Part shown: piece by piece, positions 2,230 to 41,282 of the stretch | Layout: each line of letters starts with the position of its first letter | Numbering within the stretch: the stretch's first letter is position 1 | Virus record (IMG/VR): IMGVR_UViG_3300017742_000027 | Coordinates: 1-41,703 of that record | DNA length: 41,703 nt | Direction: 5' to 3' (one strand) | Origin: a virus | The notes under the pieces: generated by a model | Database searches by the model: none | Told to the model about the DNA's origin: nothing | The model's input: only the letters and a program-made list of their open reading frames with translations | Program-made: the position numbers and the translations under genes

Positions 2230-2449
2230 TATAATAAGAAAGATTAGTATAGGTTCTGATTATAAAAACGATGCAATGCATTATTCTTTAGGTCAACAAG
2301 TTTATGGTGGTCATGAAATATCTCACATATTATTTGATGAAAAAGATAACTCATATAATATTTATATAAAGAAAAACAATGAAGTATTGCCATGGAAAAA
2401 GTTTAACTTTAACATGTCTATATCAATTGAATATGATTTAGAGTATTAA
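2222..2449 (+). CDS. Hypothetical protein
   Basis: A 75-aa protein with alternating hydrophobic and polar residues suggesting a small beta-rich domain. It contains no Cys and no recognised motif. It overlaps the preceding gene by 8 nt, and its stop shares a base with the start of the GroES-like gene (TAATG). The tight junctions on both sides argue that it is a real gene. Confidence 0.6.
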   Translation: MNNIIRKISIGSDYKNDAMHYSLGQQVYGGHEISHILFDEKDNSYNIYIKKNNEVLPWKKFNFNMSISIEYDLEY

Positions 2450-7894: not shown

Positions 7895-7919
7895 TATTTA
7901 ATTATATTATATTATGGCA
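7895..7919 (+). repeat. 25-nt AT-rich leader/start repeat, copy 1
   Basis: The 25 nt ending in the first codons of the scaffold gene (TATTTAATT...ATTATGGCA) are identical to 10636-10660 in front of the gene after the capsid. The element spans the spacer and the ATG. It could be a shared translation-initiation leader or part of a late promoter; sequence alone does not decide. Confidence 0.7.
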
Positions 7920-9125
7920 GAAAAAAAAGCGGCCGTAGAGGTCAAGCAAGAAGGTGAATTTACTTTAAAAGGTAAAATAAAACCAAAAAGAAAGGCAAAA
8001 GATTTAGGTAAAACTAACACTGAGCCTGTAAAAATGGAGATGAAAAAACCTATAGAACAAAAGGTAGAAACTCCTAAAATTGATTTAACTAAAAAAGAAG
8101 ACGATGCCGTTCAAGAGCGAAAAACAGAGGAAGTACCTGTGGGCAACGAACCCAAAGTTGGCACAGAAGTGGACAAAGAAGTACGGGTCAGCGATACAGA
8201 TGCTAATGAAGAATCTCCGCTCCAAGTAATTGAGGAGATAACTGAAGAAGTTAAACCAGTTGAAGTAAAAAAACAAGATACTCCGATAATTAAAATGCCT
8301 GAATTACCAGAAAATGTAGAAAAGCTGGTAACATTTATGAATGAAACAGGTGGTACGGTTGAAGATTACGTAGAGCTTAATAAAGATTATACTAAGCTAG
8401 ACAACGATCAATTGTTGAAAGAGTATTTAAGAAAAACAAAACCTCATTTAGACTCAGAAGACATTAATCTTATAATGGAAGATTATAGTTTTGATGAAGA
8501 ATTAGATGAGCAAAAAGATATACGAAGAAAAAAATTAGCTTATAAAGAAGCTGTTGCTAACGCTAAAAAAGATTTAGAAAATAAAAAATCTAAATATTAT
8601 GCTGAAATAAAGCAAAGACCTGGTGTTACGCAAGAGCAACAAAAAGCGATGGATTTTTTTAATCGTTACAATAAACAGCAAGAAAATATAAAGCAGTCTC
8701 AGGAAAATTTTAAACAAAAAACTAGCGATTTATTTAATACTAATTTTGAAGGTTTCGATTATACGGTAGGAGATAAAAGATTTAGATATAAGTTAAAAGA
8801 TCCTAAGGCAACTGCTAATTCACAATCTAATATAGAAAACTTTGTAAACCGATTTTTAGACAAAGATGGAAATATTGGAGATACTGCGGGTTATCATAAA
8901 GCTTTATATGCTGCGATGAATGCTGACAAGCTAGCTTCTCATTTTTATGAGCAAGGTAAAGCAGACGGTGTTAAAAACATAGTTAAACAATCTAAAAACC
9001 CAGCTACGGATGCGCCAAGGCAAGTTGCCAGCGGGGATGTCTACGTTAGCGGTTTTAAGGTAAAAGCTATTAGTGGAGCAGATTCATCAAAATTAAAAAT
9101 CAAAAAACGAACATTTAATAATTAA
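7914..9125 (+). CDS. Putative capsid scaffolding protein
   Basis: The 403-aa protein between portal and capsid genes has the features of a scaffold that guides prohead assembly and then leaves or is cleaved. It has a disordered Lys/Glu/Val/Pro-rich N-terminus (residues 1-125), a charged helical middle with coiled-coil character (about 190-290, LDEQKDIRRKKLAYKEAV...), and a basic C-terminus (KLKIKKRTF) that could contact the capsid shell. No catalytic motif is visible. Residues about 64-105 are encoded by a locally GC-rich stretch (about 48 percent) in which a different frame encodes a recognisable small phage protein (see 8104-8229). Assignment is by position and composition. Confidence 0.75.
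   Translation: MAEKKAAVEVKQEGEFTLKGKIKPKRKAKDLGKTNTEPVKMEMKKPIEQKVETPKIDLTKKEDDAVQERKTEEVPVGNEPKVGTEVDKEVRVSDTDANEESPLQVIEEITEEVKPVEVKKQDTPIIKMPELPENVEKLVTFMNETGGTVEDYVELNKDYTKLDNDQLLKEYLRKTKPHLDSEDINLIMEDYSFDEELDEQKDIRRKKLAYKEAVANAKKDLENKKSKYYAEIKQRPGVTQEQQKAMDFFNRYNKQQENIKQSQENFKQKTSDLFNTNFEGFDYTVGDKRFRYKLKDPKATANSQSNIENFVNRFLDKDGNIGDTAGYHKALYAAMNADKLASHFYEQGKADGVKNIVKQSKNPATDAPRQVASGDVYVSGFKVKAISGADSSKLKIKKRTFNN
8104..8229 (+). CDS. Nested out-of-frame MPFKS-type small phage protein (41 aa)
   Basis: In the +1 frame inside the scaffold gene an ATG opens a 41-codon frame encoding MPFKSEKQRKYLW, NPKLAQKWTKKYGS and a basic tail ending LRSK. This matches a small basic protein pattern I recognise from many phages (MPFKSxxQRxYLWxxxPxxAxxW), of unknown function. 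The frame coincides almost exactly with a GC-rich island (about 48 percent over 8101-8220) in an otherwise AT-rich gene. The host frame here encodes a low-complexity acidic segment that could tolerate overprinting. It is either a live nested gene or a captured cassette kept as coding filler. The similarity is by recall, not search; expression is unproven. Confidence 0.6.
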   Translation: MPFKSEKQRKYLWATNPKLAQKWTKKYGSAIQMLMKNLRSK

Positions 9126-20130: not shown

Positions 20131-20529
20131 ATGAAATTTAATGTAAAAAACTTAACAGAGAGTGATTATGCAACTCTTGTTGAGTGGTGGGATTGGTGGC
20201 CTGGATGGGTTGCACCACCTAAAACTTTTTTACCGGAAACAGGTTTAATGGTAACTAAAGGTGATAAAAATATAGCTGCATGTTATTATTATTTAACTAA
20301 TTCAAAAGCGGCTTTTATTGAATGGATAGTTTCTAATCCACAATATAGAGATAAAGATAGAAAACAAGCTTTAGGTACATTAATAACTGTAGCTGAACAA
20401 GTTTTAAAAAAATTAGGTGTTGTTCACGTTATGACTATGAGCAGACACCCGAGTTTATTAAAAATACATGAAGAGTTAGGTTGGACCATAGATCCAAAAC
20501 CTTCTCATGAAATAATTAAAAATTTATAA
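20131..20529 (+). CDS. GNAT-like acetyltransferase-fold protein (T7 gp13-like position)
   Basis: The 132-aa protein shows a compact GNAT pattern. Strand 4 is AAFIEWIVSNPQYRD. The acetyl-CoA pyrophosphate-loop region is KDRKQALGTLITVAEQVLKKLGVVHVMTMS (the canonical Q/RxxGxG/A is degenerate here: RKQALGT). It ends HEELGWTIDPKPSHEIIKN. Proteins of this fold stand before the internal virion genes in T7-like phages (gp13), where they act structurally rather than catalytically. Lying between tail and internal-protein genes, it may do the same here. Catalytic activity is uncertain given the altered loop. Confidence 0.65.
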   Translation: MKFNVKNLTESDYATLVEWWDWWPGWVAPPKTFLPETGLMVTKGDKNIAACYYYLTNSKAAFIEWIVSNPQYRDKDRKQALGTLITVAEQVLKKLGVVHVMTMSRHPSLLKIHEELGWTIDPKPSHEIIKNL

Positions 20530-22823: not shown

Positions 22824-25800
22824 ATGAATAATATTAATGAAATACTAGGAGAATTTGATCCTAGTTTATTATTTACAACACCTACTGATGAAGAGAAAAG
22901 TAACACTGAAGTCATTGATGCAAGCAACGACGTTGATGGTGATACAATGGGTACTACTATTCCTGCGCCTGAAAATATAACAACAAACGTAGAGGTTGGT
23001 AACACTGATATTGAAACGGTTCAACCACCAGTGACAACAGATGAGCAAAACGAAAAGATACAAAAAGATATAAACAAGGAAGTAGAGGTTCAACCTTGGG
23101 ATAATATAGAATTAATCACAGAAAATTCTACGGTTGATAATAGTGACTCTTATTTTACTCAACAAACTGTTCAAGATTTACAAAAAAAAATAAATAAACT
23201 TTCTGGCAAAAACGCTTTTGAAGATTTAGAAGGTGATGAAATAGAAAAGCAAAATAATATAAACCTTATTGAACAAGGCTTAGATCCAAGCTTTGATATA
23301 GACGATGTAAACACCTGGTTTTTAACAGCTGAAGAACAAAAAAGACGACTAGACACTCATAAAATGGTGGTGCCTGTAAGAAATGATAAGTTCAAGACAG
23401 CCACAGATCTTGTAAATTCAATAACCAGTGAAACCTCTGAAGAAGAAAAAGAAGAAATATTAAATCAAGCTACAACAATAGTTAGAACGCTAGACAAAAA
23501 GTATGGTGAGATTCAAGGAGACGCAAATGCTCAAACAGCAAAAATATTAGAACCCTCATATAATGGTAGTACAGACTTTACCAATGAAGATGATGTTTTA
23601 GCTTTTTATGAAAACGCTTTTAAAACAGTTGTAGATAAAGATAAAGCTTTAACTGATATACAAGATGTTATATTAAAAGAAAACGAAGAATTGTTATTAG
23701 AAAAACAAGCACAACTGCAAGCTTCTTTAAGTCAATACCAATCTTATCAATTTGAAGAAAATTACTTTACAGGTATAAGCAGAGCTTTAACAGGTAAAGG
23801 TATAGAGCATGACTCTTTTATATTTAGTCCTCAACAAGAAGAACAAGAAGCTTCTTTGCTTTTAGCTAATAAAGAATACACAGATTTTGTTAATAACTTA
23901 ATTACATCAGATCCTAGATTTAAAGAAAGAATTACAATTCTAAATGAAAGCGTAGCTCAGTCTATAGATCCACAAATAACAGCTGCTATGCAGGCTCAAC
24001 AAGATAAATTAACAGAAGAACAAAAAGCAGCGATCAGAGCAAGAAGACTAAACTCTAGTATAATTGGCGCTACAAGTAAGTTTGATGATTTAGGACTTAA
24101 TTTTAGTGTTGATGGTTTAAAGTCTTATGTAAGTGGAAGCAACTCTTTAAGCCCATTTAATCCATACAGGATAGTTGAAAATATTTTGGGTTATGAGACA
24201 ATGTCTTTAAGCAACAGCTTGTACACAGGTATTAGTAATATAAACTTAGACGACAGTACAGGTCTTATTCTTATGAATAAACTATTAGACGATCAAGATC
24301 GATATGATTCGTTTGTAATGGATGAAGACGAATATAATAATAGAATAAATAAAAGAGAGCACACTGGAGCTACAGCTGCTAATAAATTTTATTTAAGATC
24401 TAAGAAAAGATTATTACCAGAAGGTGACCAATCTTTAGTTTACTGGGACAACAAAAGAGGAGAAATAGTTACTTATATAAGTAATTATTCTGACGGTAAA
24501 CAAATATATACAGGTGTAAGCGCTTTAGGAAACTCGTTTAAAAAACCTAGTGAAAATTACATAAAAAGTATTGAAGATAAAAACGGTTGGAAATTAATGA
24601 CTTTTGCAGAAGCTAAAGATTTAATGAAAGCTAAAAATAATGATTTAAGTAATCAAGTAATGGATCACATGGTTGGTATCATGCAGAAAGAGCATGAAGC
24701 TGAGTTGTTTTCTGAAGAACAGTTTACTGACTTTTTATCAAACGTAATGTCTGGTAATGTAGCTGATGCTCTTAGGTTTATTCCTAAAACTATTTTAAAG
24801 CAAGTTCCTTACATGGCAGCTAACCTTTTCTCTGCAGGAACGTATACTTTATTTCAAGAAGGTGGTAATTTAACTTTTGACTTAATACAAAATGCCGCAG
24901 CTGCTGATTTAGGTATTGATGTTAACGATTTAACAACAGAGCAGATGTTAAGTTATATGGAAAATAATGACGATGCTGTTAGCAATAAGATAATGGTAGG
25001 TGTCACAGGTGGTGCCGCAATAGCTGGTTTAGAAAGAGCTGGTATTGGGTATATGATAAAGTCTATGGATTTTGCTAAGTCTGGTTTTTCACAATTATTA
25101 AAAGGAAATGTAAGAAAAGCTTTATCACAAAGTAAGAAGGTTCTTGCTAATCAAGTAAAAACTGGATTAAATGAAAGTTTAACTGAAGGTTTACAAACAG
25201 GCGTAGATCAAATTATAACAGGTAGATTTGATCCTATGGAATACGTAAACTCTATGGGTGAAGGATTTATAGGAGGTGTTGCTTTACCTATTGGTGGTGC
25301 TTTTGTTTCTTCTACTATAAATAGAATACAAAATTTAGCAAAAAATACAAGGTTAAATATTAGAGATCCTAAGTTTTACGAAAAAGCAAACAAGGTATAC
25401 GAACTAGCTAGAACTGATTTAGACGCTAAATTAAAAGCGGGAACTATAACTGAAGTAGAATATGATAAACAATTAAATCAAGTTTCTGGAGACAGAGACG
25501 CTTTGTTAAAAATACCTAAACATTTTACAGTTGAAGCTAAGCAAGAAAGTTTTGAGCTGTTTAAAGAACTAACAACATTAAGAGATGCTGTGGCCAAAAG
25601 CGAGCCTTCTATGGTAGAAAGCGAAACTGCAAGAATAAAAGATATTGAAGCTCGACTTAAAGAGCTAAGTGCTGAGCAAGGTTTAATAAAACAAATAGGT
25701 CAAGTAGAAGGATTAATTGATCCTAATGGTAATCTATCAATGAGATCTTTTGATACAACTATAGAGGCAGATGCTTTTATTGAAGAACAAAATGAAACAG

Positions 25801-28800
25801 GTAATTGGGATAGTACAGCTTCTAGCGATGGTAATGGAACTATATTACAAAACAAAGAAACCGGTCAACAATTAATTATAGTAGATAAACAAAACTCTGC
25901 TAAAGTTTTAGATATAGCAGTAGCAGATCATGAGTTTTTACATGCGTTAATGTTCCAAACAGTTAAAGACAACCCTGCGGCTCAACAAGCTCTGGGGTCT
26001 TCTCTTTTATCTTATATAGAAAAAATTGATGCTGATGGATTAATGTCAGATAATTTAAAAGAAAGATATAAAGTATATAAAAACAAACCTATAAACGATC
26101 AATACGAAGAAGCTCTTAATTTCTTAGCTGACGCTTTTATTAATGAAGAAATAGCTGTTAACGATGGTATTCTTGATAAGTTAGGTAGAATGGTTAGAAA
26201 CTTGCTAGGAACTCTAGGCGTACCCGTTAAGTTTAACAGTGGTCAAGATGTTTATAATTTTGTAAAAGATTATGCAGTAGCTAGAAAAAAAGGTAAAGGA
26301 TTAAATAAATCTCAAAGAAAACTGTTAACCACAAGTGCTATTGTAGGTAAAGATTTAGGCAAAGGTGTAACAAGTCAAATAAGTGATATAATAAAAAACC
26401 AATCTGGTGATATAAACATTGGCAAACAGAGTAAAAGAACTGCTCAAGAATTAATGTTACAATATCAAGAACTTGGCACTGAAATGAATATTGATTTGCA
26501 AGAAGATTTAATAAGTCAATATTATTCTTTAGGTTTAAAAGCTATGGGTTATGATAGAGCCGCTGGAGATATAAAAACAGATGAAGCTTTAAACTTTTTA
26601 AATAGTGAATTTCCTAGTATTGCTCGTAATTATAATTCAGCTGATGGATCTTTAAGTAATTACATGAGAAACACTATTGGCCCAAGAGGTAAAGGATTTT
26701 TTCAAACTGAAATAGAAAGAAAGAAAAGAACTGTAAGTAAAGAAAAACTTGAAGATAAAGGTAGACAAATAGTAGATACAGATACGCAAGTTGATTTTGA
26801 TCAACGTGTTAAAGAAGATATAGGTAGAGCTAAAGTATATCCATCATCTATAAAGGTTATAGAAAACAATATAACAAGTGAAGTAAGAGCAGAGCAAACT
26901 ACTAATATTAAAGATGATATAAATAGAGCTATAGCTAGTGATAAAACAAATCCTAAGCAAACAGCTAAAGCTATTATTGAGCAGACTAAAACTAAAGAGT
27001 ATAGATCTTCTATTAAAAAAGCTTTAGGAAAGTGGAATAGTGATCAGTATAATAACAATGTTGATAATCTTATTACTAGGTCGTTTATTAAAACATTGCC
27101 AATAGCTCAAATAAAAAGAAGGTTTGGTAAGTTATTTAATATAAAAGAAATAGATAGAGTACCAACTGTTAAAATTGAAAACGGTAAACGTACTGATTTT
27201 AAAAAGCCAGTTTATTTAATACCTGAAATTACAACTGAAAAATTAAATGAAATAAAAAATTATTTCAAAGCAGGAGAAAAAAGACACCAATCACTTATGA
27301 GTTTAATTGCTGAAGGCGTAGCGGTTGAGCAAATGGAAGAAATAAAAAGTGATAAAGATTTCATGAATGACCTACAAAGTAGATTAGAAATTAAAAACTC
27401 TAATCTTACGGCTGATCAATTTATAGACGAAGTTATTTTTAATATTGATAAAAGAAACTTAGAAGATAAATCTTTTGACATAGCTAAAGCTAGTACTAGA
27501 TCTAAACCTGTTTCAAAAGTTAGTAAAAATTATAGTAAAGTAGTTAAAGCTAGTATTGCAAAACAATTGCAAGATTATGATTTAAAGCTATATCCAACAT
27601 TTGAAAATAAATTTTTACATGATAAGATGAGTGCTGATCAAGTAAAAGGAAGAAACGAAAGTGTAATTAGAAGTTTGCCTGAACTTGGTTTAGACTTTTT
27701 TGAATATATATCTTCTAGAGGTGATGAAGCTTACGCTCCTGGTATCGCTAATAGCAGTAGAAGTATATTTAATAAAAAAGGAAACGTAAACGAATTAAGA
27801 GATTTAATTAACGCTCCTTTATCTGGTGAGTTTATTAAAAATAATCCTTCGTATGTAAAAAAATATACAAAAACTGTTAACGGTGAAGTGTATTTAGATA
27901 AAGATAAGTTACGAGTTGGCACTGTTTTAAGCGCTAATGACATGAAGATAATAAGAGAAGCTGAAGCTAATCAATCTTCTTACGCTAATTTAAGTCCAGA
28001 AAAAAGAATAGATAGATTAAAAGATCCAAATTTTAGAAATAATCAAGCAGAAAAAACTAATATATTAAAGAAAATACTCAATGTTATAAGTAAAGACGTA
28101 AGAGTAGACAAAAAAATAGTACCGGCTAGAATGGAATTTTGGGCAACTTGGATAAATAGTCAAGTTAATAATTCAAAACATCCAATTAGAGTTTTAGCTC
28201 CTATTGAATTCTTTTCTTTATCTAAAATACCAAAACGTAGCACGGTTGAAGGATATAAATTAAATAAAAAAGGTGAAGTAATTTCTGTAGATATTTTAAA
28301 CTATGTTGCAGAACATTTAATGCCAGCTAATAACACAGCTAAAATAGCTGTTGATCTTATATACAACAACACTGTTAACAAAGATTTTAGTCTTATAAAA
28401 GATAATTATGTTCAAGGTCAATTATTAAAAACAGACGACAACTACGTAAATGATAAAAACATAGGTGAAGGTGGTTTTAAATCTCAATTTCCTAGTGAGT
28501 TTTGGAATATGGACAAACCAAATGTTTGGGTTAGATATTTATTAGGTAATCCTAATATAAATCTAAATGAATACGTTACTTATAAAAACGGTAAAGTAAT
28601 GACTATTGCTGAAAGTTTAGGATTACCTTTAGGTAACTTAGAAAACAATCCTGACAACGTTCAGTTTCAAAATAAATTACTTAAAGAAATTTTATTAGAA
28701 AACAAAAGTGTTAAAAGTGCTCAAGCAGAATTTAAAACCGCTGCGCCAACTAACGCTAAACAAAGTAAAAGAGTTAAGATAAATAAGAAAACTTTATTTC

Positions 28801-31592
28801 CACTTATAAACGCTAATGGAACTACAGAGTCTTCTATTGAGGCGATGGGTGGCGCTGATAAAGCTGCTGAACTGGCTAGAGCTTTAGATACACCTTCAAA
28901 AGGTATTAGCGTGTTTGATTTTGACGACACGCTAGCTTACAGCAATAGTAAGGTTATTGTTAAAATGGAAGATGGAACTACAAGAAAAATAACACCGGCT
29001 GAGTTTGCTAGTGAAGCAGAAACGTTGGAACAAAACGGTGCTGAATTTAATTTTGATGAATTTAACAAAGTTGTTGATGGTAAAAAAGGACCATTAGCTG
29101 ATCTAGCTTTAAAACGTCAAGACAAGTTTGGTAGTGGAGATATATTTGTATTAACAGCAAGACCACAAGCTTCTGCTGAAAGTATTAAAATGTTTTTAGA
29201 TGGTATTGGTTTAAACTTACCTATTGAAAATATAACTGGCTTAGAAAATGGATCAGCTGATGCAAAAGCTTTATGGGTGTTGGATAAAGCAGCAAAAGGT
29301 TATAATAACTTTTATTTTGCAGACGATGCTATAGCTAATGTTCAAGCTGTTAAAAATATACTTGACCAAATAGATGTTAAGTCAAAAGTTCAAATAGCTA
29401 AACAAAGTAAAAGAGAAAGAATAAGTAAAGAGTTTAATGTTATTATAGAACAACAAAGTGGTAAAGAATGGTTTAAAACTTATTCTACAGCTAGAGCTAA
29501 AGTTCAAGGTAAAGCAAAGAATAAATTTGAATTTTTTATTCCTCCATCAGCAGAAGATTTTGTAGGTTTAATGTATAAAATTTTACCTAAAGGAAAAAAT
29601 GGTGATAGAGCTTTGGTTTGGATAAAAGAAAATCTTTTAGATCCATATAATAAAGCTGAACAAGAAGTTATTGCAGCAAAAATATCTGTTGCTAATGATT
29701 TTAATGAGCTAAGAAAAAGTATAGATAATATTCCTAAAAACTTACAAAAACAAGCTGGATATAGTAATTTTACATGGTCTCAAGCTTTACGCGTGTACAT
29801 GTGGAATATGCAGGACATGGATATACCAGGATTATCTGTAAGAGATAAAAATGCTTTAGTAAAACTTATTGAAGATAAGGTAGATATGAAAGTGTTTGCT
29901 GAAAAAATAATTTTCATACAAAAAGATAAAGAATATCCTGCGCCTTCAAGTAATTGGGTTGGTGGTAGTATTACTAGTGATATAATAAATAGTATACAAA
30001 AAACTTTTAGAAAACAAACTTTACAACCTTGGCAAGAAAATGTTGATGCTATATTTTCTGAAGACAACATTAATAAATTAGAGGCGTTATACGGTTCTAA
30101 TTATATAACAGCTTTAAAAAATATTCTTAATAGAATGAAACGTGGTAACAACAGGCCTGTAAGTTCTAGTAAACAAGTTGAAAACGTTATTGATTGGCTT
30201 AACAATTCTGTAGGTACTATAATGTTCTTGAATAGAAAATCAGCTTTGTTGCAGCTTATATCTTCTGTTAATTTTATTAATTGGTCTGATAATAATATTG
30301 TAGCCGCTGGTAAAGCTTTTGCTAACCAACCTCAATATTGGAAAGACGTTATGTATTTAATGAACTCTGATTATTTAGTTCAAAGACGTAATGGTATGAA
30401 GATCAATGTAGCTGAATCAGAAATAGCTGATGCTTCAAAAAAAGGTGGATTAAAAGGAGTAATAGCTTATTTATTAAATAAAGGATTTGTATTCACAAGA
30501 ATAGCAGATAGTTTAGCTATTGCTACTGGTGGTGCAACTTTTTATAGAAATAGAGTAAATGCGCTGCAAAAACAAGTAAATATAGATACAGGTAAACCTT
30601 ATACTGAATCTGAAGCAAGTACTAAAGCTTTTGATGATTTTTATCAAATATCTGAAGAAAGTCAACAGTCAAGTAGAGCCGATAGAATATCAATGCAGCA
30701 AGCTAGTGGATTAGGTAGATTAGTATTAAACTTTGCTAACACACCTATGCAATACGCTAGAATTATAAAAAAATCAACTAAAGATTTATTAGCTGGTAGA
30801 GGTGATTGGAAAACTAATTTAAGTAAAATAGTATATTACGGAGCTGTTCAAAACTTAATATTTAGCGCTTTACAAGCTGCGGTATTTACTCTTTTATTTG
30901 ATGAAGAAGAAGAAAAGAAAGACAGAACAATTTCAGATAAAGCAGAAGGTATAGGTTTTAGTATGTTAAGCTCGTTGTTAAGAGGTTTAGGATATGGTGG
31001 TGCTTTAGTAGACACAATCGTAGCAGTAAGTAGAGAAGTAGCGGTACAATCAAATAAAAAATCACCAGATTTTGAAGAAGCTGTGTGGAGTGTGTTTGAT
31101 TTTTCACCAGCTATAGATTCTAAAGTAAGAAAACTTAGAAGCGCTGCTAATACTTTTAAGTATAATAAAAAAGAAATTGCAAGAAGAGGGTTTAATTTAG
31201 AAAATCCAGCTTATTTAGCTTTAGGTCAAATTGTATCGTCTACATTTAACGTACCTTTAGATAGAGCTTTACGTATGGCAATGACTTTAAAACAAGCTTC
31301 GGATCAAGACGTTGCTCTTTGGCAAAGAATAGCTTTGTTAGCTGGTTACAGTAGTTGGTCTGTTAATTTACCATATTGGGGAACTACAACTACTATTGAA
31401 AGAGAAACTAAGGAAGATGAAGAGATAAAAACAAAATACAAAAAAGAAGCTATTAGATTAAAAAAAATAGGTTACAAAAGGATACCAATGACTAAAGGTA
31501 AACCAAAAGGTAAACTAAATGTTGATTTTATAGAGGTAGCAAGACCTACCGGTAGCATTGAATATTGGTTAACTCCAGTTAAAAACAATTAA
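22824..31592 (+). CDS. Giant 2922-aa multidomain (polyvalent-like) internal virion protein
   Basis: This is the largest gene in the window. Residues 1-620 are acidic and coiled-coil rich. About 650-830 are hydrophobic (PYMAANLFSAGTYTLF, GGAAIAGLERAG, GGVALPIGGAFVSS). A zincin motif DHEFLHALMF (H1036-E-x-x-H1040) has a downstream acidic helix near E1095. KQSKR boxes stand at 1201, 1979 and 2193. A sigma-factor-like stretch lies around 1206-1330. A HAD-like phosphohydrolase module lies between the second and third boxes (DFDDT with D2032/D2034, VLTARP at 2109, FADD at 2165). The C-terminal 450 residues match a module common in very large environmental-phage proteins, with hydrophobic segments near 2670 and 2715. 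By position it replaces T7 gp16, the ejectosome protein. Enzymatic roles on entry into the host are inferred. Confidence 0.8.
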   Translation: MNNINEILGEFDPSLLFTTPTDEEKSNTEVIDASNDVDGDTMGTTIPAPENITTNVEVGNTDIETVQPPVTTDEQNEKIQKDINKEVEVQPWDNIELITENSTVDNSDSYFTQQTVQDLQKKINKLSGKNAFEDLEGDEIEKQNNINLIEQGLDPSFDIDDVNTWFLTAEEQKRRLDTHKMVVPVRNDKFKTATDLVNSITSETSEEEKEEILNQATTIVRTLDKKYGEIQGDANAQTAKILEPSYNGSTDFTNEDDVLAFYENAFKTVVDKDKALTDIQDVILKENEELLLEKQAQLQASLSQYQSYQFEENYFTGISRALTGKGIEHDSFIFSPQQEEQEASLLLANKEYTDFVNNLITSDPRFKERITILNESVAQSIDPQITAAMQAQQDKLTEEQKAAIRARRLNSSIIGATSKFDDLGLNFSVDGLKSYVSGSNSLSPFNPYRIVENILGYETMSLSNSLYTGISNINLDDSTGLILMNKLLDDQDRYDSFVMDEDEYNNRINKREHTGATAANKFYLRSKKRLLPEGDQSLVYWDNKRGEIVTYISNYSDGKQIYTGVSALGNSFKKPSENYIKSIEDKNGWKLMTFAEAKDLMKAKNNDLSNQVMDHMVGIMQKEHEAELFSEEQFTDFLSNVMSGNVADALRFIPKTILKQVPYMAANLFSAGTYTLFQEGGNLTFDLIQNAAAADLGIDVNDLTTEQMLSYMENNDDAVSNKIMVGVTGGAAIAGLERAGIGYMIKSMDFAKSGFSQLLKGNVRKALSQSKKVLANQVKTGLNESLTEGLQTGVDQIITGRFDPMEYVNSMGEGFIGGVALPIGGAFVSSTINRIQNLAKNTRLNIRDPKFYEKANKVYELARTDLDAKLKAGTITEVEYDKQLNQVSGDRDALLKIPKHFTVEAKQESFELFKELTTLRDAVAKSEPSMVESETARIKDIEARLKELSAEQGLIKQIGQVEGLIDPNGNLSMRSFDTTIEADAFIEEQNETGNWDSTASSDGNGTILQNKETGQQLIIVDKQNSAKVLDIAVADHEFLHALMFQTVKDNPAAQQALGSSLLSYIEKIDADGLMSDNLKERYKVYKNKPINDQYEEALNFLADAFINEEIAVNDGILDKLGRMVRNLLGTLGVPVKFNSGQDVYNFVKDYAVARKKGKGLNKSQRKLLTTSAIVGKDLGKGVTSQISDIIKNQSGDINIGKQSKRTAQELMLQYQELGTEMNIDLQEDLISQYYSLGLKAMGYDRAAGDIKTDEALNFLNSEFPSIARNYNSADGSLSNYMRNTIGPRGKGFFQTEIERKKRTVSKEKLEDKGRQIVDTDTQVDFDQRVKEDIGRAKVYPSSIKVIENNITSEVRAEQTTNIKDDINRAIASDKTNPKQTAKAIIEQTKTKEYRSSIKKALGKWNSDQYNNNVDNLITRSFIKTLPIAQIKRRFGKLFNIKEIDRVPTVKIENGKRTDFKKPVYLIPEITTEKLNEIKNYFKAGEKRHQSLMSLIAEGVAVEQMEEIKSDKDFMNDLQSRLEIKNSNLTADQFIDEVIFNIDKRNLEDKSFDIAKASTRSKPVSKVSKNYSKVVKASIAKQLQDYDLKLYPTFENKFLHDKMSADQVKGRNESVIRSLPELGLDFFEYISSRGDEAYAPGIANSSRSIFNKKGNVNELRDLINAPLSGEFIKNNPSYVKKYTKTVNGEVYLDKDKLRVGTVLSANDMKIIREAEANQSSYANLSPEKRIDRLKDPNFRNNQAEKTNILKKILNVISKDVRVDKKIVPARMEFWATWINSQVNNSKHPIRVLAPIEFFSLSKIPKRSTVEGYKLNKKGEVISVDILNYVAEHLMPANNTAKIAVDLIYNNTVNKDFSLIKDNYVQGQLLKTDDNYVNDKNIGEGGFKSQFPSEFWNMDKPNVWVRYLLGNPNINLNEYVTYKNGKVMTIAESLGLPLGNLENNPDNVQFQNKLLKEILLENKSVKSAQAEFKTAAPTNAKQSKRVKINKKTLFPLINANGTTESSIEAMGGADKAAELARALDTPSKGISVFDFDDTLAYSNSKVIVKMEDGTTRKITPAEFASEAETLEQNGAEFNFDEFNKVVDGKKGPLADLALKRQDKFGSGDIFVLTARPQASAESIKMFLDGIGLNLPIENITGLENGSADAKALWVLDKAAKGYNNFYFADDAIANVQAVKNILDQIDVKSKVQIAKQSKRERISKEFNVIIEQQSGKEWFKTYSTARAKVQGKAKNKFEFFIPPSAEDFVGLMYKILPKGKNGDRALVWIKENLLDPYNKAEQEVIAAKISVANDFNELRKSIDNIPKNLQKQAGYSNFTWSQALRVYMWNMQDMDIPGLSVRDKNALVKLIEDKVDMKVFAEKIIFIQKDKEYPAPSSNWVGGSITSDIINSIQKTFRKQTLQPWQENVDAIFSEDNINKLEALYGSNYITALKNILNRMKRGNNRPVSSSKQVENVIDWLNNSVGTIMFLNRKSALLQLISSVNFINWSDNNIVAAGKAFANQPQYWKDVMYLMNSDYLVQRRNGMKINVAESEIADASKKGGLKGVIAYLLNKGFVFTRIADSLAIATGGATFYRNRVNALQKQVNIDTGKPYTESEASTKAFDDFYQISEESQQSSRADRISMQQASGLGRLVLNFANTPMQYARIIKKSTKDLLAGRGDWKTNLSKIVYYGAVQNLIFSALQAAVFTLLFDEEEEKKDRTISDKAEGIGFSMLSSLLRGLGYGGALVDTIVAVSREVAVQSNKKSPDFEEAVWSVFDFSPAIDSKVRKLRSAANTFKYNKKEIARRGFNLENPAYLALGQIVSSTFNVPLDRALRMAMTLKQASDQDVALWQRIALLAGYSSWSVNLPYWGTTTTIERETKEDEEIKTKYKKEAIRLKKIGYKRIPMTKGKPKGKLNVDFIEVARPTGSIEYWLTPVKNN

Positions 31593-34966: not shown

Positions 34967-35000
34967 AAAGGGGAGTTCAATCGAGCTCCCCTTTTTTTTT
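34967..35000. terminator. Intrinsic terminator at convergent junction
   Basis: AAAGGGGAG (34967-34975) pairs with CTCCCCTTT (34986-34994) around a 10-nt loop, followed on the plus strand by a run of T to 35000. It ends the late block. On the minus strand the hairpin lies just after the nrdA stop, with a shorter T tail, so it may act in both directions. Confidence 0.88.
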
Positions 35001-36693
35001 ATCCATCACAAGCAACGCAGTCTTCCATAGCTTTGTTAGCTATATCTCCACGTAATACTGATTCAGTTCTCATATAGTATAATGTTTTAATACCTTTTTT
35101 CCACGCGTCTAAATGAACTTGATTAATCCACTTAGGACTTGCTTGAGAAGGAAATGCTAAATTCAAACTAACCGATTGATCTATGTATTGTTGGCGTATT
35201 CCTGCTTGCCTAACTAATTCTAATTGATTTATTTCTTTAAAAGTTTTAAACACTTCTTTGGTAGAGTCGTCTAGATCTTTTATATCTTGAACCGAACCAC
35301 CATCTGCTAATATTTTGTCCCATGTTTCTTTGTTATTAATTCCTATCTTTTCCAAAACTTTAACCAGTGTAGGATTTTTCCTAATGAACGTCCCTTTAGC
35401 AGATTGCTCTGTGAATACATTAGCTGCCCAGGGTTCAATCCCTGGAGATACGTTTCCAGAAAGTTTTGAATTACTAACAGTGGGAGCAATAGCGCGTAAA
35501 TGGGTGTTGCGAAACCCAGTACCAACACACCAAAGAGGTTCTCCATAAACATCAGCAAGAGCCATGCTAGCTCGTTCAGATTCGATTTTGATTTGGCTAA
35601 AAATTCTTCTTGTTTCATATTGTGATAATAAACCCTCAAATGGTAAACCTTTTTCTTGTAGATACGTATGCCAACCAAGTACACCAAGACCTAAAGCTCT
35701 GCTTTTTTCAGCAAAACGTACAGAGTTTTCAAAACCTTTTCTGTATTTAGCTCTTTGTATAAATTCTTCAAGCACACCATCTAAAAACCATATTGAGTCA
35801 TAAATGATATTTGTGTTTTTCCATTCGTCATACTTAGCTAGGTTTAAGCTAGATAGACAACAAACGAATGAATGATTTTCATCTGTGTGTAATACTATTT
35901 CACTACATATGTTTGTCATATGTACCTTCAGAGCGTTGTCTTTGTAAGCCGAAGGATTTTGTTTGTTAGTGTTCCCTTTAAAAAGCACGTAAGGTTCTCC
36001 AGTAGCTTTACGCTTTTGAAGTAGTTTTCCCCAACGTTTTCTAGCTTCTCCATCTCCTTGTTCAAGTCGTCGCATAAATTTATCGCCGACGACAGCGCAT
36101 TGATGTAAGTTAAGCGATTGTCTGTTGACGTCTCCTTTAGGTTCACGTATTTCGATCCACTCTTCGAAATCGGGGTGATCAATGTTAATATTAACTGATG
36201 CAGCTCCTCGTCTGACAGATCCTTGATTAGTGGCAAGTATTGTGCTATCGTATATTTTACAAAAAGGCACAACTCCGTCGCTTGTTCCATTTCCTTTTAT
36301 TTTAGCTCCAGCGGGTCTAATTTGATTTATACCGATACCAACTCCACCGCCGTGTTTAGCGAGTAGCATCATCTCTAAGTTCTTCTGTCCAATATCGACA
36401 ATACTGTCAGCAACATCAATACCAAAGCAACTAATAGGAAGCCCACGATCAGTCCCAGTATTTGAAAGAACTGGCGAAGCCAAGCAAAGCCAACCTTTCC
36501 ATATGTAATTAAAAAACGAATCAGCCATTTCAGGCTTATCCAACCTTTTAGCAACTGTTTTTGCAACTCTTTCATAAGCTTGTTTAGGGTTTTCGTCATT
36601 ATATAAATAACCTCCACCTATTGTTTTTTTATAAACTTCATTATCTCCCCACTCTGGGTAATCCACTCCTTTTTTCCATTCATTATTCCACAT
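34999..36693 (-). CDS. nrdA: Ribonucleotide reductase class I, alpha subunit
   Basis: The 564-aa enzyme reduces ribonucleotides to deoxyribonucleotides together with NrdB. Visible active-site elements are the redox Cys C89 (PISCFG), the radical/substrate motif NICSEI (N261, C263, E265), the partner Cys in VCCLSSLNL (C278/C279), the radical-transfer Tyr pair Y539-Y540 (TLYYMRTES), and the C-terminal shuttle Cys (C559, C562 in DCVACDG). There is no N-terminal ATP cone, so allosteric activity control is probably absent. The start is ATG 36693; a TTG further upstream is inside the preceding gene. The gene is closely linked to nrdB but separated from it by three small genes. Several internal patches are GC-richer than flanking DNA. 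Confidence 0.95.
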   Translation of the reverse strand: MWNNEWKKGVDYPEWGDNEVYKKTIGGGYLYNDENPKQAYERVAKTVAKRLDKPEMADSFFNYIWKGWLCLASPVLSNTGTDRGLPISCFGIDVADSIVDIGQKNLEMMLLAKHGGGVGIGINQIRPAGAKIKGNGTSDGVVPFCKIYDSTILATNQGSVRRGAASVNINIDHPDFEEWIEIREPKGDVNRQSLNLHQCAVVGDKFMRRLEQGDGEARKRWGKLLQKRKATGEPYVLFKGNTNKQNPSAYKDNALKVHMTNICSEIVLHTDENHSFVCCLSSLNLAKYDEWKNTNIIYDSIWFLDGVLEEFIQRAKYRKGFENSVRFAEKSRALGLGVLGWHTYLQEKGLPFEGLLSQYETRRIFSQIKIESERASMALADVYGEPLWCVGTGFRNTHLRAIAPTVSNSKLSGNVSPGIEPWAANVFTEQSAKGTFIRKNPTLVKVLEKIGINNKETWDKILADGGSVQDIKDLDDSTKEVFKTFKEINQLELVRQAGIRQQYIDQSVSLNLAFPSQASPKWINQVHLDAWKKGIKTLYYMRTESVLRGDIANKAMEDCVACDG

Positions 36694-36901
36694 TTGTTTC
36701 AAACTTTTTTTGTTCAATTTTTCTTTCTTCTACTTCTTTTAGTTCATTAACTATTTTTTCCCAATCATCTTTTCCTATGTGCATTTGAAACGCTGTTAAA
36801 GTTCCTTGCGCTAGAGACGTTGTGTTTTGAAGTTCTTTTATTAATTCTCTTACAACATTTGTAAGGGCTTCTACTTTTTTCTTTAATTTATTCTGTGACA
36901 T
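36683..36901 (-). CDS. Small coiled-coil hypothetical protein
   Basis: A 72-aa charged helical protein (KLKKKVEALTNVVRELIKEL, then NELKEVEERKIEQKKFE) with coiled-coil character and no catalytic motif. It overlaps the oxygenase gene by 14 nt upstream and the nrdA start by 11 nt downstream, so the three are almost certainly co-translated. Function unknown. Confidence 0.65.
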   Translation of the reverse strand: MSQNKLKKKVEALTNVVRELIKELQNTTSLAQGTLTAFQMHIGKDDWEKIVNELKEVEERKIEQKKFETNVE

Positions 36902-37451
36902 ATTTATAAAATATTACTAAAACTTTTCTAGGGTTATTAAATTTATTAGGGTACTTGCTATGAAAATAATTACAAGGATATGACAATAATCTATTAGGTT
37001 TATATCCTATTATTGATTTTAATTTCCATTTAGACTTATCATCAGCATCGTCTATCAACATGCGGTTAAATTCTTCTGCATCTGATTCTATATAAGTTTC
37101 ACCATAATTTTCATGTTCCCAGAACGCTGTGCCGTTTAAATCATGATAATTAGATTCAAGATATAATACTGCTGCTCTATCAGGTTTTTGTCCCTCTATA
37201 ATAGTATCATTATGTATTCTCCATTCATCATCTTCATTACCTTCTGCTTTTCTAATAAACGCTCTTATTATGTTTATGTTTTTACCTTCAATACTATATA
37301 AACCTTTTGCTAATAAATTAGGAAATTGTTCTGGTAATTCTTTAACCCAAAATGATTTGCCAGGTGTTTTAATTTCTTTAAAATCATCAGCGTAATCTAA
37401 TAACGCTTTGAATATCATAGGTTTTAAAAAACTATCTTGTATATATATCAT
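36888..37451 (-). CDS. 2-oxoglutarate/Fe(II)-dependent oxygenase
   Basis: A 187-aa protein of the prolyl-hydroxylase-like 2OG oxygenase type. The iron triad is visible: WRIHND (H80, D82) and FHSKYP (H164), with the 2-oxoglutarate-binding Arg at R175 (NNPRKVLVIFY), 11 residues after the second His. The first strand (MIYIQDSFLKPMIFKALLDYADDF) is also typical. Phage enzymes of this class hydroxylate proteins or nucleic acids; the substrate here is unknown. The start at 37451 is favoured over the longer frame because its ATG overlaps the upstream TGA (ATGA). It sits between nrdB and nrdA, which share the need for iron and oxygen. Confidence 0.82.
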   Translation of the reverse strand: MIYIQDSFLKPMIFKALLDYADDFKEIKTPGKSFWVKELPEQFPNLLAKGLYSIEGKNINIIRAFIRKAEGNEDDEWRIHNDTIIEGQKPDRAAVLYLESNYHDLNGTAFWEHENYGETYIESDAEEFNRMLIDDADDKSKWKLKSIIGYKPNRLLSYPCNYFHSKYPNKFNNPRKVLVIFYKYVTE

Positions 37452-37702
37452 ATCATGTAATGCATTATTAGAAACATACCAGCAGGTATACATGTATAAA
37501 CAAAGTCCATTATTTCAGGACTACCTTTATCTAAGTACCAGTCATAAACTAGTTCTTTTGCAGCGGCTATTATTACTGTTAACCATAAACCGTTTACTCC
37601 TATTAGAAACAAAAATATAAAACTTAATATTGCTCCGTAAAAAAAGTGTAACAGTTTGTCTTTTGGTATACTACCAAATATCTTCAAAATCTTCTCCTTC
37701 AT
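37448..37702 (-). CDS. Small integral membrane protein
   Basis: An 84-aa protein (start at 37702; a longer frame to 37858 would overlap nrdB by nearly 190 nt and is unlikely). It has a short amphipathic start (MKEKILKIFGSI), DKLLHFFYGAILSF leading into a membrane helix, a second hydrophobic stretch (GLWLTVIIAAAKELVYDWY) and a third (MDFVYTCIPAGMFLIM). The pattern D-K-x-x-H-x...KE-x-x-D resembles small VanZ-like/DUF membrane proteins found in phages and bacteria. It overlaps the nrdB 3' end by 32 nt and the oxygenase start by 4 nt. Function unknown. Confidence 0.65.
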   Translation of the reverse strand: MKEKILKIFGSIPKDKLLHFFYGAILSFIFLFLIGVNGLWLTVIIAAAKELVYDWYLDKGSPEIMDFVYTCIPAGMFLIMHYMI

Positions 37703-38639
37703 TTGCTTTACTATAGTCAGTCGGCCGAATTGCAAAAAAGTCAGTGTGAGTGTGACCCCCAGTAAGATGATAGAACCAATCAAGATTCGCTGCTGCGTCT
37801 TTGTCATATTGGAAAAATCTTCTTTTATCTGTGTAACCAAGTTCTGATAATTTTTCATTTGTTCTTTTTCTTATAAATTGTTTTAAATCGTATGACTTTA
37901 AATTTTCTATATCACCCATTTCAAACATCTTATCAATATATTTTTCTTCAAGATCTATCATTATTTTTGCAGCAGAATAAATATCTTCTTTGCATTCATC
38001 TTTTAATTCAGGTAATTCTTCACACATATGTCTATATAATTGACAACCCATTCTACTATGTAGTGATTCATCTCTTACAGACCATTTCATTTGTTGTCCG
38101 ATTCCCTTGAGAAGATTACGTAGTTGAAAAGAGTATAAAACAGCAAAAGCTGAGTACAGACTAACACCTTCTGCGAATGCTGAAAACACCGCCAAGCTTC
38201 TACCAATGCCCACAGGATCAGTGCCGTCATAGCTAACCAGGTTGTCAAATCTTTCCGACGTCGCCGGTTCGTGAAGAAACGCTTCAAAGTTTTCAAGTCC
38301 AAGTGTTTCATTTAAATAACTGTATGCAACAGCATGTATTGTTTCTTGTGAGCCGAACATCATAGCCATCTGTTGCACTTCATGTTTTGGAAACCATGAT
38401 ACGACTTTTTGTGTCCAGTAATCTGATACTGCACATTCTGTTTGAGCAAAACCTAATAGTATATTACCTACTAGGTTTTTTTCGGAATCAGTAAGCTTTT
38501 CATTCCAGTCTTTCACATCACCTGACATAGGTATCTCTGTGTGTAACCAAAATGCTTGCGCTTGCTTTAACCAACCTTCAGTATAATATATAGGGTATTC
38601 AAACGGTTTATAAGGTATTCTCTCTTTAAATAAACTCAT
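37671..38639 (-). CDS. nrdB: Ribonucleotide reductase class I, beta subunit
   Basis: The 322-aa radical-generating partner of NrdA. The dimetal ligands are E68 (FAQTECAV), E99 and H102 (QETIHAVAY), E157 (FAEGVS), and E191 and H194 (RDESLH). The radical tyrosine is Y106, four residues after H102 as in E. coli Y122. The first ligand is Glu instead of the usual Asp (E. coli D84), at the same 31-residue spacing. The acidic/aromatic tail (EGEDFEDIW) is the peptide that docks on NrdA. Start ATG 38639 replaces a TTG six codons upstream. A region around nt 38161-38280 is about 51 percent G+C. Confidence 0.95.
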   Translation of the reverse strand: MSLFKERIPYKPFEYPIYYTEGWLKQAQAFWLHTEIPMSGDVKDWNEKLTDSEKNLVGNILLGFAQTECAVSDYWTQKVVSWFPKHEVQQMAMMFGSQETIHAVAYSYLNETLGLENFEAFLHEPATSERFDNLVSYDGTDPVGIGRSLAVFSAFAEGVSLYSAFAVLYSFQLRNLLKGIGQQMKWSVRDESLHSRMGCQLYRHMCEELPELKDECKEDIYSAAKIMIDLEEKYIDKMFEMGDIENLKSYDLKQFIRKRTNEKLSELGYTDKRRFFQYDKDAAANLDWFYHLTGGHTHTDFFAIRPTDYSKANEGEDFEDIW

Positions 38640-38640
38640 A

Positions 38641-38790
38641 TTAATAAGGTATTTCAAATGCTATATCTACAAACGGTAGATAAAACACGTATGTTATTTG
38701 ATTTTCTTCTTCATAAGCTCTGCACCCAAATAGTATACCTGGGTAGAAACCAAATGATAAAGACCAGTTCCATTTTTCTTTATTATCCAT
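38641..38790 (-). CDS. 49-aa conserved small protein (WSLSFGFYPGILFG)
   Basis: A short gene encoding MDNKEKWNWSLSFGFYPGIL, then FGCRAYEEE and YVFYLPFVDIAFEIPY. I recognise the F-x-PGILFG-x-R-x-Y ... YLPFVD arrangement from small proteins near nucleotide-metabolism genes of marine phages; function unknown. It begins inside the 3' end of the preceding 57-aa gene (8-nt overlap) and ends 1 nt before the nrdB start, so it probably belongs to the same transcript. Confidence 0.6.
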   Translation of the reverse strand: MDNKEKWNWSLSFGFYPGILFGCRAYEEENQITYVFYLPFVDIAFEIPY

Positions 38791-38956
38791 AAACTTTTAT
38801 ATTATACTGGTCTTGATATTCAACCAGTTCTTTATATTTAACTTTTCCTCTTTGTTGCCAAGACCATTTAACCCACTTGTCAATTTGTCTTTCAGCATAT
38901 TTTTTTCTAGCTACTAACTTCGCGAGGTTAGGATTAGGTCTACTGTTTCGTCGCAT
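38783..38956 (-). CDS. 57-aa basic small protein
   Basis: An open frame starting MRRNSRPNPNLAKLVARKKY and ending YNIKVYG, rich in Arg/Lys and Trp/Gln (KWVKWSWQQRG). It overlaps the 3' end of the endonuclease gene by 43 nt and the next small gene by 8 nt. Its regular position in the chain of overlapping genes, with no alternative explanation of the DNA, supports it. Function unknown. Confidence 0.5.
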   Translation of the reverse strand: MRRNSRPNPNLAKLVARKKYAERQIDKWVKWSWQQRGKVKYKELVEYQDQYNIKVYG

Positions 38957-39363
38957 TCTTTTTGATTTTGTGGTTTATACAATGTTACGTTAGGAAACTG
39001 CGTCATAACAAGTCTTTTAAACAATTTCCAACGCATAGGAAAAGATTCATTTGCTCTCCCTTTTGTTTCAATTATAAAATCTTCTCCAATAAAATCAGGA
39101 GTATACTTAATAGGTAGAATACGTTTGCATCCTCTATTTTTATACATACCTTTTCCATTAGAACATCTTTCATAAACTTCATTTTCAAAATGAAAACCAG
39201 CTAGCAGAACAAATGTCTCTCCTTCATATTTTGATTTAATTTTTGCTTTTTTTAAAGCCATATACATATATCGCTCTAAACCTGAAGCAAAGTTAATACC
39301 ATCATATGATACTTTTTTTGATTGTACAGGACCTTTTTTGCGTTTATAAAATTTCTTCTTCAT
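38914..39363 (-). CDS. PD-(D/E)xK endonuclease (Holliday-junction resolvase-like)
   Basis: A 149-aa nuclease with the T7 endonuclease I-like/DUF1064 pattern: FASGLERYMYMALKKA (catalytic Glu), YTPDFI (Asp) and FIIETKGRA (E-x-K). These make a complete E...D...ExK metal site. A CxxxxxxxxC insert (YERCSNGKGMYKNRGCKRI) and a Lys-rich N-terminus (MKKKFYKRKKGP) fit DNA binding. Such enzymes resolve branched replication or recombination intermediates before packaging, or degrade host DNA. It overlaps the upstream gene by 20 nt and lies within the replication block. Confidence 0.82.
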   Translation of the reverse strand: MKKKFYKRKKGPVQSKKVSYDGINFASGLERYMYMALKKAKIKSKYEGETFVLLAGFHFENEVYERCSNGKGMYKNRGCKRILPIKYTPDFIGEDFIIETKGRANESFPMRWKLFKRLVMTQFPNVTLYKPQNQKECDETVDLILTSRS

Positions 39364-39631
39364 TAACGTTTATATTAGTTACATCTGTCGTAAATCTTTT
39401 GTAAGCCACTTCTTCTATTTCATCTTGCAAACAACGTTTAGCAGCTTCAATATAAAGTAACGCATCCATTAATTCTTCTTGTACATCAATCAAGAAACGA
39501 TTAAGATCTTTTTCTTGACCTTCTATTTCTTGCATCATTGTAGCTCCATATTTCTTTTGACCTATTAAGCTACGTTCGTCCATCTTCCTTAGTACTTGTT
39601 GTACTATCTTGTCTTTAGTTTTAATCTGCAT
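39344..39631 (-). CDS. Small helical protein, possibly NTP-pyrophosphohydrolase-like
   Basis: A 95-aa, all-helical protein. QKKYGATMMQEIEGQEKDLNRFLIDVQEELMDALLYIEAAKRCL carries an acidic helix (VQEELMDALLYIE) like those of all-alpha NTP pyrophosphohydrolases and related phage proteins. Its E-E-x-x-D pattern is incomplete compared with the MazG gene just upstream, so activity is doubtful; it may be a partner or paralogue. It overlaps neighbours by 11 and 20 nt. Confidence 0.5.
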   Translation of the reverse strand: MQIKTKDKIVQQVLRKMDERSLIGQKKYGATMMQEIEGQEKDLNRFLIDVQEELMDALLYIEAAKRCLQDEIEEVAYKRFTTDVTNINVNEEEIL

Positions 39632-40406
39632 CTTTTACAAATGTTCCATTAATCATTTTACCTGTTCTTTTACTAATAACTCTATAAGCGCTTTCTATAC
39701 ATTCCTCAATTGTAACACCTTGCATGTGTGACAAATTTGTTAGTACAACAACCATATCGCCAATAGCATCTATTATTTCAGGTTTATCATTTTTAAGTAA
39801 TGCTTTAGCTAGTTCACCAGCTTCTTCTTGAAGCTTTACATATTGAGTATGCGCGTTACCTTCGTCATATAAACCTCTATCTTGTGCCCATTCTCTAATT
39901 CTGCTAAACATTGCGTCATCTTCACATTGAACCATAACGGGTTCTGTAAACATATCTCTATTGTCATAAGCTCTAGCAAAAGCTTTATTGTAAACATAAC
40001 ATCTATTATTATTATACATAGATGTTTTAACGTTATCCATTATCCATTTAATTGTTTGACTAGTAATCTCTAAAGTACCGTGTTCTGTTTTCCACTCCAT
40101 ACCTATATTATCTAGCAACTGTCCTTTTAGTTTATTAACAGGACATGGAAACGTAGTAGTTTGTTCTGTTACGTTTATTTTCATTTTATTTGATTTAAAT
40201 AATTCATTATATTTTTTACGATCAACTTTATAGCCATAAGACTTTTGAAGTTCTATCTCTTTCTCTGATATATAATCTATATCATCGGACTGATCAAGAA
40301 CTTCATATTCGTCTGCAGTATAACCCTGCGTTAACGTAACTCTCTTAGTAAGATTACATGTAACGCCGATCTTTTTACCCGGAATGTGATATAAATAATA
40401 TGTCAT
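39621..40406 (-). CDS. GIY-YIG-like domain fused to MazG-type nucleotide pyrophosphohydrolase
   Basis: The 261-aa protein has a C-terminal MazG-type all-alpha domain with the metal motif E194-E195-x-x-E198 ... E210-x-x-D213 (KLQEEAGELAKALL, KPEIIDAIGDMVVVL). This predicts hydrolysis of (d)NTPs to monophosphates, or of alarmones. The N-terminal 65 residues (YYLYHIPGKKIGVTCNLTKR ... YISEKEIELQKSYGYKVDR) resemble a small GIY-YIG nuclease-like domain, with YLY, IGVT, a basic helix and an EKE segment. The two are joined by a linker of about 100 residues. The start ATG overlaps the stop of the thymidylate-synthase-family gene by 1 nt. The MazG call is strong, the GIY-YIG call moderate. Confidence 0.75.
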   Translation of the reverse strand: MTYYLYHIPGKKIGVTCNLTKRVTLTQGYTADEYEVLDQSDDIDYISEKEIELQKSYGYKVDRKKYNELFKSNKMKINVTEQTTTFPCPVNKLKGQLLDNIGMEWKTEHGTLEITSQTIKWIMDNVKTSMYNNNRCYVYNKAFARAYDNRDMFTEPVMVQCEDDAMFSRIREWAQDRGLYDEGNAHTQYVKLQEEAGELAKALLKNDKPEIIDAIGDMVVVLTNLSHMQGVTIEECIESAYRVISKRTGKMINGTFVKDAD

Positions 40407-41047
40407 TATAATTTATTGTTATATAAGTGTAAATTATGTGCGTAATGATAATATTCACCAATTTCAATATTTAATCTCTCTGCAACCATTGTTTGCAACA
40501 TACTAAATTGGTATTGATCATTGCAAAAGCCGTACCAGAGATCATTAGAACGCATTAAAACAGCCATATTAAGCTTATCGTTTAGTATTGTGAACTGAAC
40601 AGCATAAGTACAAGGCGTATCTTTAGCATAATACTTATGTTCTTTAGCATCATAAATACTTATTGCCGCGTGTCTAGTATCTTTGCAATTCTTTAGCTTT
40701 GCAACAACATAATCAAGTTGATCTTTACGTTGCCATTGCCAACCGTAATTACTATTAACATTGCCTTTACTGTCAGCCATACGCTCCCATATTTGTGGTA
40801 CTTTACCATATATTTCTCCTAGCTTTTTAATATTAGGATTACCAGATAAATACCATTCCCACTCTGCCATCGCGTAGTTTAGTTTCCAGTCACGTTCGTC
40901 GTTAACAATATAATTTTGTTCGGGTTTTTCTAACGTAAAACCTACGTTGAATAAAGCTTTAGTATCACCGAACTCGATACCATTGATTCTTATTTCGTTT
41001 AAGAAATAACAATAAGCTTCGTCTGCATTTTTAAATTTTCTGCGCAT
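40406..41047 (-). CDS. Thymidylate synthase family enzyme; predicted dCMP-preferring (hydroxymethylase-like)
   Basis: A 213-aa protein with thymidylate-synthase architecture. It has a catalytic Glu (E62 in AEWEWYLSG), nucleophile Cys C146 (DTPCTYAVQF), RSND (R166-D169), and HNLHLY with H207 and Y209. Spacing from C146 to Y209 equals that of E. coli ThyA. At the position of E. coli N177, which selects dUMP over dCMP, there is Asp (D177, FCNDQYQF). Asp at this site is characteristic of dCMP hydroxymethylases. The protein ends about 50 residues earlier than ThyA, lacking the C-terminal segment that closes over folate. The start at 41047 minimises overlap with the upstream gene (17 nt). The product may feed modified dCTP synthesis, or be an unusual dTMP synthase. 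Confidence 0.8.
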   Translation of the reverse strand: MRRKFKNADEAYCYFLNEIRINGIEFGDTKALFNVGFTLEKPEQNYIVNDERDWKLNYAMAEWEWYLSGNPNIKKLGEIYGKVPQIWERMADSKGNVNSNYGWQWQRKDQLDYVVAKLKNCKDTRHAAISIYDAKEHKYYAKDTPCTYAVQFTILNDKLNMAVLMRSNDLWYGFCNDQYQFSMLQTMVAERLNIEIGEYYHYAHNLHLYNNKL

Positions 41048-41282
41048 ATTTATTATAATAGTATTTATAGAACTCGTACATTTGTATCCATATTGATACT
41101 GGACCATATGCTAATGGAGATCTATTTGTTTTATTATTCATTTTAATTTCTATATACCAAGTACCTTCACCCGTTGCAAACGGAGATATATATATTCCAT
41201 TGTTTATACACCACCTGTATGCTTCCGTTTCCAGAACAGTAGGCATATAGTTTCCCATTTTGTTTTTCTTTATTCGTGGCAT
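41031..41282 (-). CDS. Small conserved hypothetical protein
   Basis: An 83-aa protein (MPRIKKNKMGNYMPTVLETE ... NGIYISPFATGEGTWYIEI ... YKYYYNKYAQKI) with a basic start and a Tyr/Lys-rich end. I associate its WYIEI...NRSPLAYGP pattern with small proteins beside replication genes in marine phages; function unknown. Its ATG follows the helicase stop directly, and its end overlaps the next gene by 17 nt, showing operon membership. Confidence 0.6.
   Translation of the reverse strand: MPRIKKNKMGNYMPTVLETEAYRWCINNGIYISPFATGEGTWYIEIKMNNKTNRSPLAYGPVSIWIQMYEFYKYYYNKYAQKI

Follow-up and report, generated by a model that had tools for sequence, protein, structure and literature searches.

Short basic boxes mark the seams between modules of a giant phage protein, and we suggest that they are recognition or cleavage sites at which the chain would be processed by the zincin-like metallopeptidase embedded in it. 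We put the probability of this reading at about 0.52; that the boxes are sites of proteolysis of some kind, whichever enzyme cuts, seems rather likely. A sequence-only reading had noticed three copies of KQSKR in one protein. That observation is real and considerably broader than was then reported: KQSKR is one form of a broader motif, [KRQ][FYASQ]S[KR], carried by up to five homologous seams, namely A after the zincin, B between the middle modules (at the end of the conserved block next after the zincin), C and D before a HAD module, and E after it.

The window, that is, the whole stretch of DNA analysed, is a 41.7-kb virus record. Its head genes (capsid, portal and others) resemble those of flavobacterial podovirus-type phages, the capsid matching those of elemovirus, Maribacter phage Panino and Manatee Spring phage at 43–49%. 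Within the late gene block, the giant gene (Table 1) sits where the genes for giant "structural proteins", elemovirus gp18 and Cellulophaga phi38:1 gp101, sit in those phages. Since the syntenic genes of elemovirus and the Cellulophaga phages carry a structural annotation, the protein is probably packaged in the virion, from which it would be delivered into the host. At least two unrelated domains, a zincin with HExxH and a downstream glutamate and a HAD module, are combined in one chain with further conserved modules, and the N-terminal part contains hydrophobic stretches. Pfam and PHROG searches with the window protein returned no match, and profile searches of solved structures with the HAD, zincin, C-terminal and middle modules gave nothing significant. 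No relative was found in the phages collection by tblastn with the full protein, nor a cultured one when C-terminal and N-terminal pieces from divergent members served as queries. The genome collection yielded nine matches, all of them contigs of metagenome-assembled genomes (MAGs), and so no host can be assigned.

Table 1. Coordinates of the giant protein gene and of its modules and boxes in the window.
Feature	Residues	Positions	Strand	Basis or remark
Giant modular protein gene	2922 aa	22824..31592	+	open frame, no internal stop
Zincin-like metallopeptidase module	about 940-1170	25641..26333	+	alignment, AlphaFold2 model
HEFLH zinc-binding/catalytic motif	1036-1040	25929..25943	+	sequence, invariant columns
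Box A, KQSKR	1201-1205	26424..26438	+	after zincin; low-confidence linker
Box B, diverged KASTR	1555-1559	27486..27500	+	alignment; KASKK in relatives; starts pLDDT<50 stretch
Box C, KQSKR	1979-1983	28758..28772	+	alignment; pLDDT<50 stretch; before HAD
HAD-superfamily phosphatase-like module	about 2026-2190	28899..29393	+	motifs, PHROG, Foldseek
Box E, KQSKR	2193-2197	29400..29414	+	alignment; after HAD; starts pLDDT<50 stretch
C-terminal conserved domain	2198-2922	29415..31589	+	box-free, most conserved part

Several neighbouring genes can be named. A small acetyltransferase-like gene (20131-20529, +) lies between the tail and ejection-type genes, and the matching position in Manatee Spring phage is taken by an annotated N-terminal acetyltransferase subunit gene. 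The gene just upstream of the terminase (2449-3057, +) shows weak similarity to GroES (Cpn10), and elemovirus and Panino have genes annotated GroES in a comparable position. A nucleotide-metabolism block (34999-41107, -) encodes the large and small subunits of ribonucleotide reductase, a MazG-like protein and thymidylate synthase.

The metallopeptidase assignment is by motif and alignment only: H1036, E1037, H1040 and E1096 are invariant in the alignment of 66 relatives, giving HExxH and a downstream glutamate ligand. An AlphaFold2 model built from the 66 sequences has a mean pLDDT of 80, and Foldseek found no significant match between it and any named zincin; the hits of Foldseek and VIA-align were mainly partial matches to glyoxalase-like sheets, the sole long VIA-align match listed having a Z of 5.7, below the level at which it could be trusted. 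The HAD assignment follows from the invariant FDFDDT, LTAR and FADD, which correspond to HAD motifs I, II and IV, from matches of homologous modules to phrog_415 polynucleotide kinase (E about 4e-4) and from a Foldseek match to the HAD protein 6cgk (prob 0.84). The C-terminal domain is 48–88% identical to its relatives, is strongly conserved over many marine contigs, has a near-invariant QQSSR segment of its own, and has neither a Pfam entry nor a cultured relative that we could find; it may possibly be an encapsidation or anchor domain. A small stand-alone protein with DHEKVH, again an HExxH (44-388, +), shares 67–85% identity with counterparts in five relatives and is possibly a second zinc peptidase, able to act in trans.

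The three KQSKR copies are exactly where the first reading had placed them: the first follows the zincin region, with HEFLH at 1036-1040, and the last two bracket the HAD-like module, with FDFDDT (2031-2036) and FADD (2165-2168) between them. KQSKR is the sole 5-mer that occurs three times in the protein; any triple 5-mer arose in 6 of 1000 composition shuffles, and the expected count of KQSKR itself was 0.00. When residues 1150-2299 were modelled with AlphaFold2 (mean pLDDT 61), all four boxes fell within pLDDT<50 stretches or at most one residue from where one starts, box C being modelled as the end of a low-confidence helix; as about 31% of the modelled residues lie in such stretches, this placement is supportive, not decisive. 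In the separate zincin model, box A again lies in a low-confidence linker past the domain. Directly after box A, residues 1206-1345 (26439-26858, +) come, among close relatives, in three or more versions that look unrelated to one another, as though the segment had been swapped; a resemblance of this segment by eye to sigma factor region 2 was without Pfam support and was set aside.

Relatives were gathered from IMG/VR, the first eleven there and all further ones through profile scans with the HAD module, giving 290 giant-protein reading frames; once redundancy was removed and a complete 5' end required, 127 of them remained. This phage giant protein is also encoded on three contigs (L338, L339 and L340) of a Red Sea Woesearchaeota MAG, probably phage sequence that binning assigned to the wrong organism. 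Aligning related giants, as the sequence-only reading had advised, shows the boxes recurring at homologous seams. The exact KQSKR is private to the window phage; the same seams in relatives carry KASKK, KSSKK, KFSKx, KYSKx or QFS[KR]x (in the first eleven, among others, KASKK, KSSKK, KFSKK and KYSKT). Box D is present only in some relatives, and box E in nearly all that cover the region. Each phage tends to keep one spelling, for example AKFSKT/MKFSKS/LKFSRS/AKYSKS in one and IQFSKT/LQYSKT/IQFSKT/LQFSKK in another. That the boxes mark module borders, as had been claimed, is upheld by the conserved seams, the alignment break points and the low-pLDDT linkers, and as far as predicted structures and alignments allow this to be judged, they are conserved and do not fall inside folded domains. 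Boxes are all but missing from more distant HExxH giants (elemovirus gp18 and the Manatee phage), and the box rule is thus a lineage feature, not a universal one. We count this against processing by the zincin, as we do the 26 of 111 zincin-bearing giants that lack any box before the HAD module and the retention, by some zincin-less giants, of the one after it.

The genome is A-rich and the linkers lysine-rich, and the boxes could in principle be functionless look-alikes thrown up by lysine- and serine-rich composition. The box pattern was chosen on a first batch of sequences and was no longer changed when the held-out giants were tested. Looser ones such as [KR]x[ST][KR] were not clearly enriched, which fits such an origin and means that the claim rests on the narrower motif. 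With that motif, zincin-bearing giants have 189 boxes before the HAD module versus 84 in shuffled sequences, whereas zincin-less giants have 9 versus 11 (Mann-Whitney p 0.0034 for the contrast). Among 57 held-out giants, zincin-bearing members have 71 boxes versus 34 shuffled and 34 reversed, and zincin-less members 7 versus 8 and 7. The C-terminal domain, its own conserved QQSSR set aside, shows no excess (31 versus 30 reversed), nor do 376 other ORFs of at least 300 aa from the same loci (31 versus 46 shuffled). These controls, together with the reuse of spelling within proteins, make an origin in composition very improbable. The four-letter spelling of the box after the HAD module is found elsewhere in the same protein 47 times, versus 14.4 (sd 4.0) when permuted, 44 versus 23.1 when permutation is restricted to closest relatives, and 19 versus 4.6 among the held-out giants. 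As a homologous seam is counted anew in each of many phages, these counts are not independent events; the near-relative and held-out tests address this in part.

The boxes also lie close to the ends of local alignments, that is, to module borders (2.99 versus 1.11, sd 0.18). Such a position would be expected if they were recombination seams, short DNA homologies that help modules to be exchanged, as had also been suggested at first. At the DNA level the three copies of KQSKR are alike but for one base in 15, and two relatives without the zincin (L010 and L011) align with the window protein from residue 1201 onward, exactly at box A. Across giants, however, identical box residues share codons at chance level (0.572 versus 0.568), which indicates that selection acts on the protein, the flanks of the boxes are dissimilar (0.088 versus 0.068), and spelling differs between phages in a way that would spoil exchange. 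This part of the original proposal thus finds no support, and we regard it as very improbable. The codons of the box serine, taken alone, agree above expectation (0.365 versus 0.269), which we leave unexplained.

A site that one factor reads at all seams would fit the position at seams, the flexible linkers, the conservation at the amino-acid level and the single spelling within each phage, and two further observations point to the embedded zincin as that factor. An excess is found only on the downstream side of the zincin (147 boxes versus 53 shuffled and 76 reversed, the latter count probably being raised by palindromic spellings such as KSSK that match both ways), with no enrichment upstream of it (36 versus 30 and 32), and zincin-less giants show none. 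In L010 and L011, which have no zincin, boxes A–D have decayed, yet their flanks can still be aligned. The same seam, linker and spelling evidence would also be compatible with cutting by another protease, whether a maturation protease of the phage or a basic-specific host enzyme met during ejection. Basic boxes suit trypsin-like or dibasic-cleaving host proteases, and the window and five relatives encode a separate small HExxH protein. We nevertheless consider another protease unlikely: the excess occurs where the embedded zincin is present and on the downstream side of it, and a general maturation protease would need boxes in other ORFs of the same phages, where there is no excess. A KQSKN in a scaffold-like ORF (7914-9125) is QQSKN, KKSKN or NKSKN in relatives; the position is not conserved as a box, and we treated it as chance.

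The boxes might instead remain uncut and arrange the packed chain, as docking sites for the portal, DNA or an ejection partner, or as sites of serine modification. Basic residues flanking an invariant serine, in linkers, would suit such a role, and co-evolution with a single binding partner would also give one spelling per phage. Docking or modification predicts neither the restriction to the downstream side of the zincin nor the lack of excess in zincin-less giants, and we think it improbable. The suggestion that the boxes are processing sites for the embedded zincin stands in so far as the pattern fits it, with boxes in excess only downstream and only where a zincin is present; the link to that enzyme is weakened by two results. 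Paired on a backbone tree with nine clades, the association of zincin loss with box loss is no more than suggestive (one-sided p 0.08), and spelling shows a weak partial Mantel correlation with zincin sequence (r 0.11, p 0.007) that an unrelated upstream segment nearly equals (0.09, p 0.01), so that the signal is unspecific.

Under self-processing by the zincin, the reading we prefer, the giant would be a polyvalent, virion-packaged chain made up of an N-terminal part, the zincin, exchangeable modules ending in the HAD and the C-terminal domain. Each box would be a recognition or cleavage site in the flexible linker of a seam that follows the protease. Once packaged or injected, the chain would be cut at the boxes and the modules freed, in the simplest case by its own zincin acting in cis or on other copies. 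Packaging or injection, the identity of the protease and cleavage are what we infer. More tentatively, and at somewhat less than even odds, this large uncultured marine phage lineage may possess a bacteriophage counterpart of viral polyproteins, an injected chain whose zincin reads the box at every downstream seam, with spelling co-evolving with the protease and swapped-in modules having to acquire the local spelling.

Self-processing by zincins has already been proposed (Iyer et al. 2017); for the box itself we found no published account, and our literature search returned no description of such interdomain boxes. Where and whether polyvalent phage proteins are cut is a question raised by Iyer et al., to which the box contributes specific candidate sites, a rule of spelling within each phage and, in the very chain that carries the sites, a candidate protease. 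With its help giant phage "hypothetical proteins" would be easier to divide into functional modules, and new sequence-specific proteases could come to light.

Among known systems, elemovirus gp18 (3694 aa) and Cellulophaga phi38:1 gp101 share with the window protein their gene order relative to the portal, capsid and tail genes and are annotated as structural, but have no homology to it detectable in the phages collection and almost no boxes. The crAss-like cargo proteins gp45–gp50 of phi-crAss001 (PMC10172136) are likewise large, virion-borne and encoded in a similar late-gene block, and are believed to leave the virion ahead of the DNA, partly unfolded; neither cleavage nor a box is described for them there. 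The polyvalent proteins of phages and conjugative elements, including P1 DdrB and N4 virion RNAP, as treated in the part of Iyer et al. 2017 (PMC5512222) considered here, resemble the window giant in joining unrelated domains in one large chain, with a zincin-like peptidase recurring among them. The same part of that paper proposes zincin autoprocessing, citing P1 DdrB as processed, and has N4 vRNAP, with its zincin-type domain, packaged uncut, which we count against self-cutting by the zincin of the window giant. It describes no interdomain box, whereas a defined motif, spelled in one way within a phage, stands at the seams of the window giant; the window giant also matches no Pfam domain. 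Substrates such as SPN3US gp245 belong to the head and ejection proteins of giant phages that are matured by a prohead protease (PMC10052503), and there too a short motif repeated in virion proteins is the site of one phage protease. In SPN3US the motif is A-X-E, and a separate protease cuts several head proteins, mostly removing N-terminal propeptides. The boxes of the window protein, basic K-x-S-K without glutamate, differ from the S/A-X-E cleavage motif of the phiKZ/SPN3US type, and they lie within one giant chain that carries its own candidate protease.
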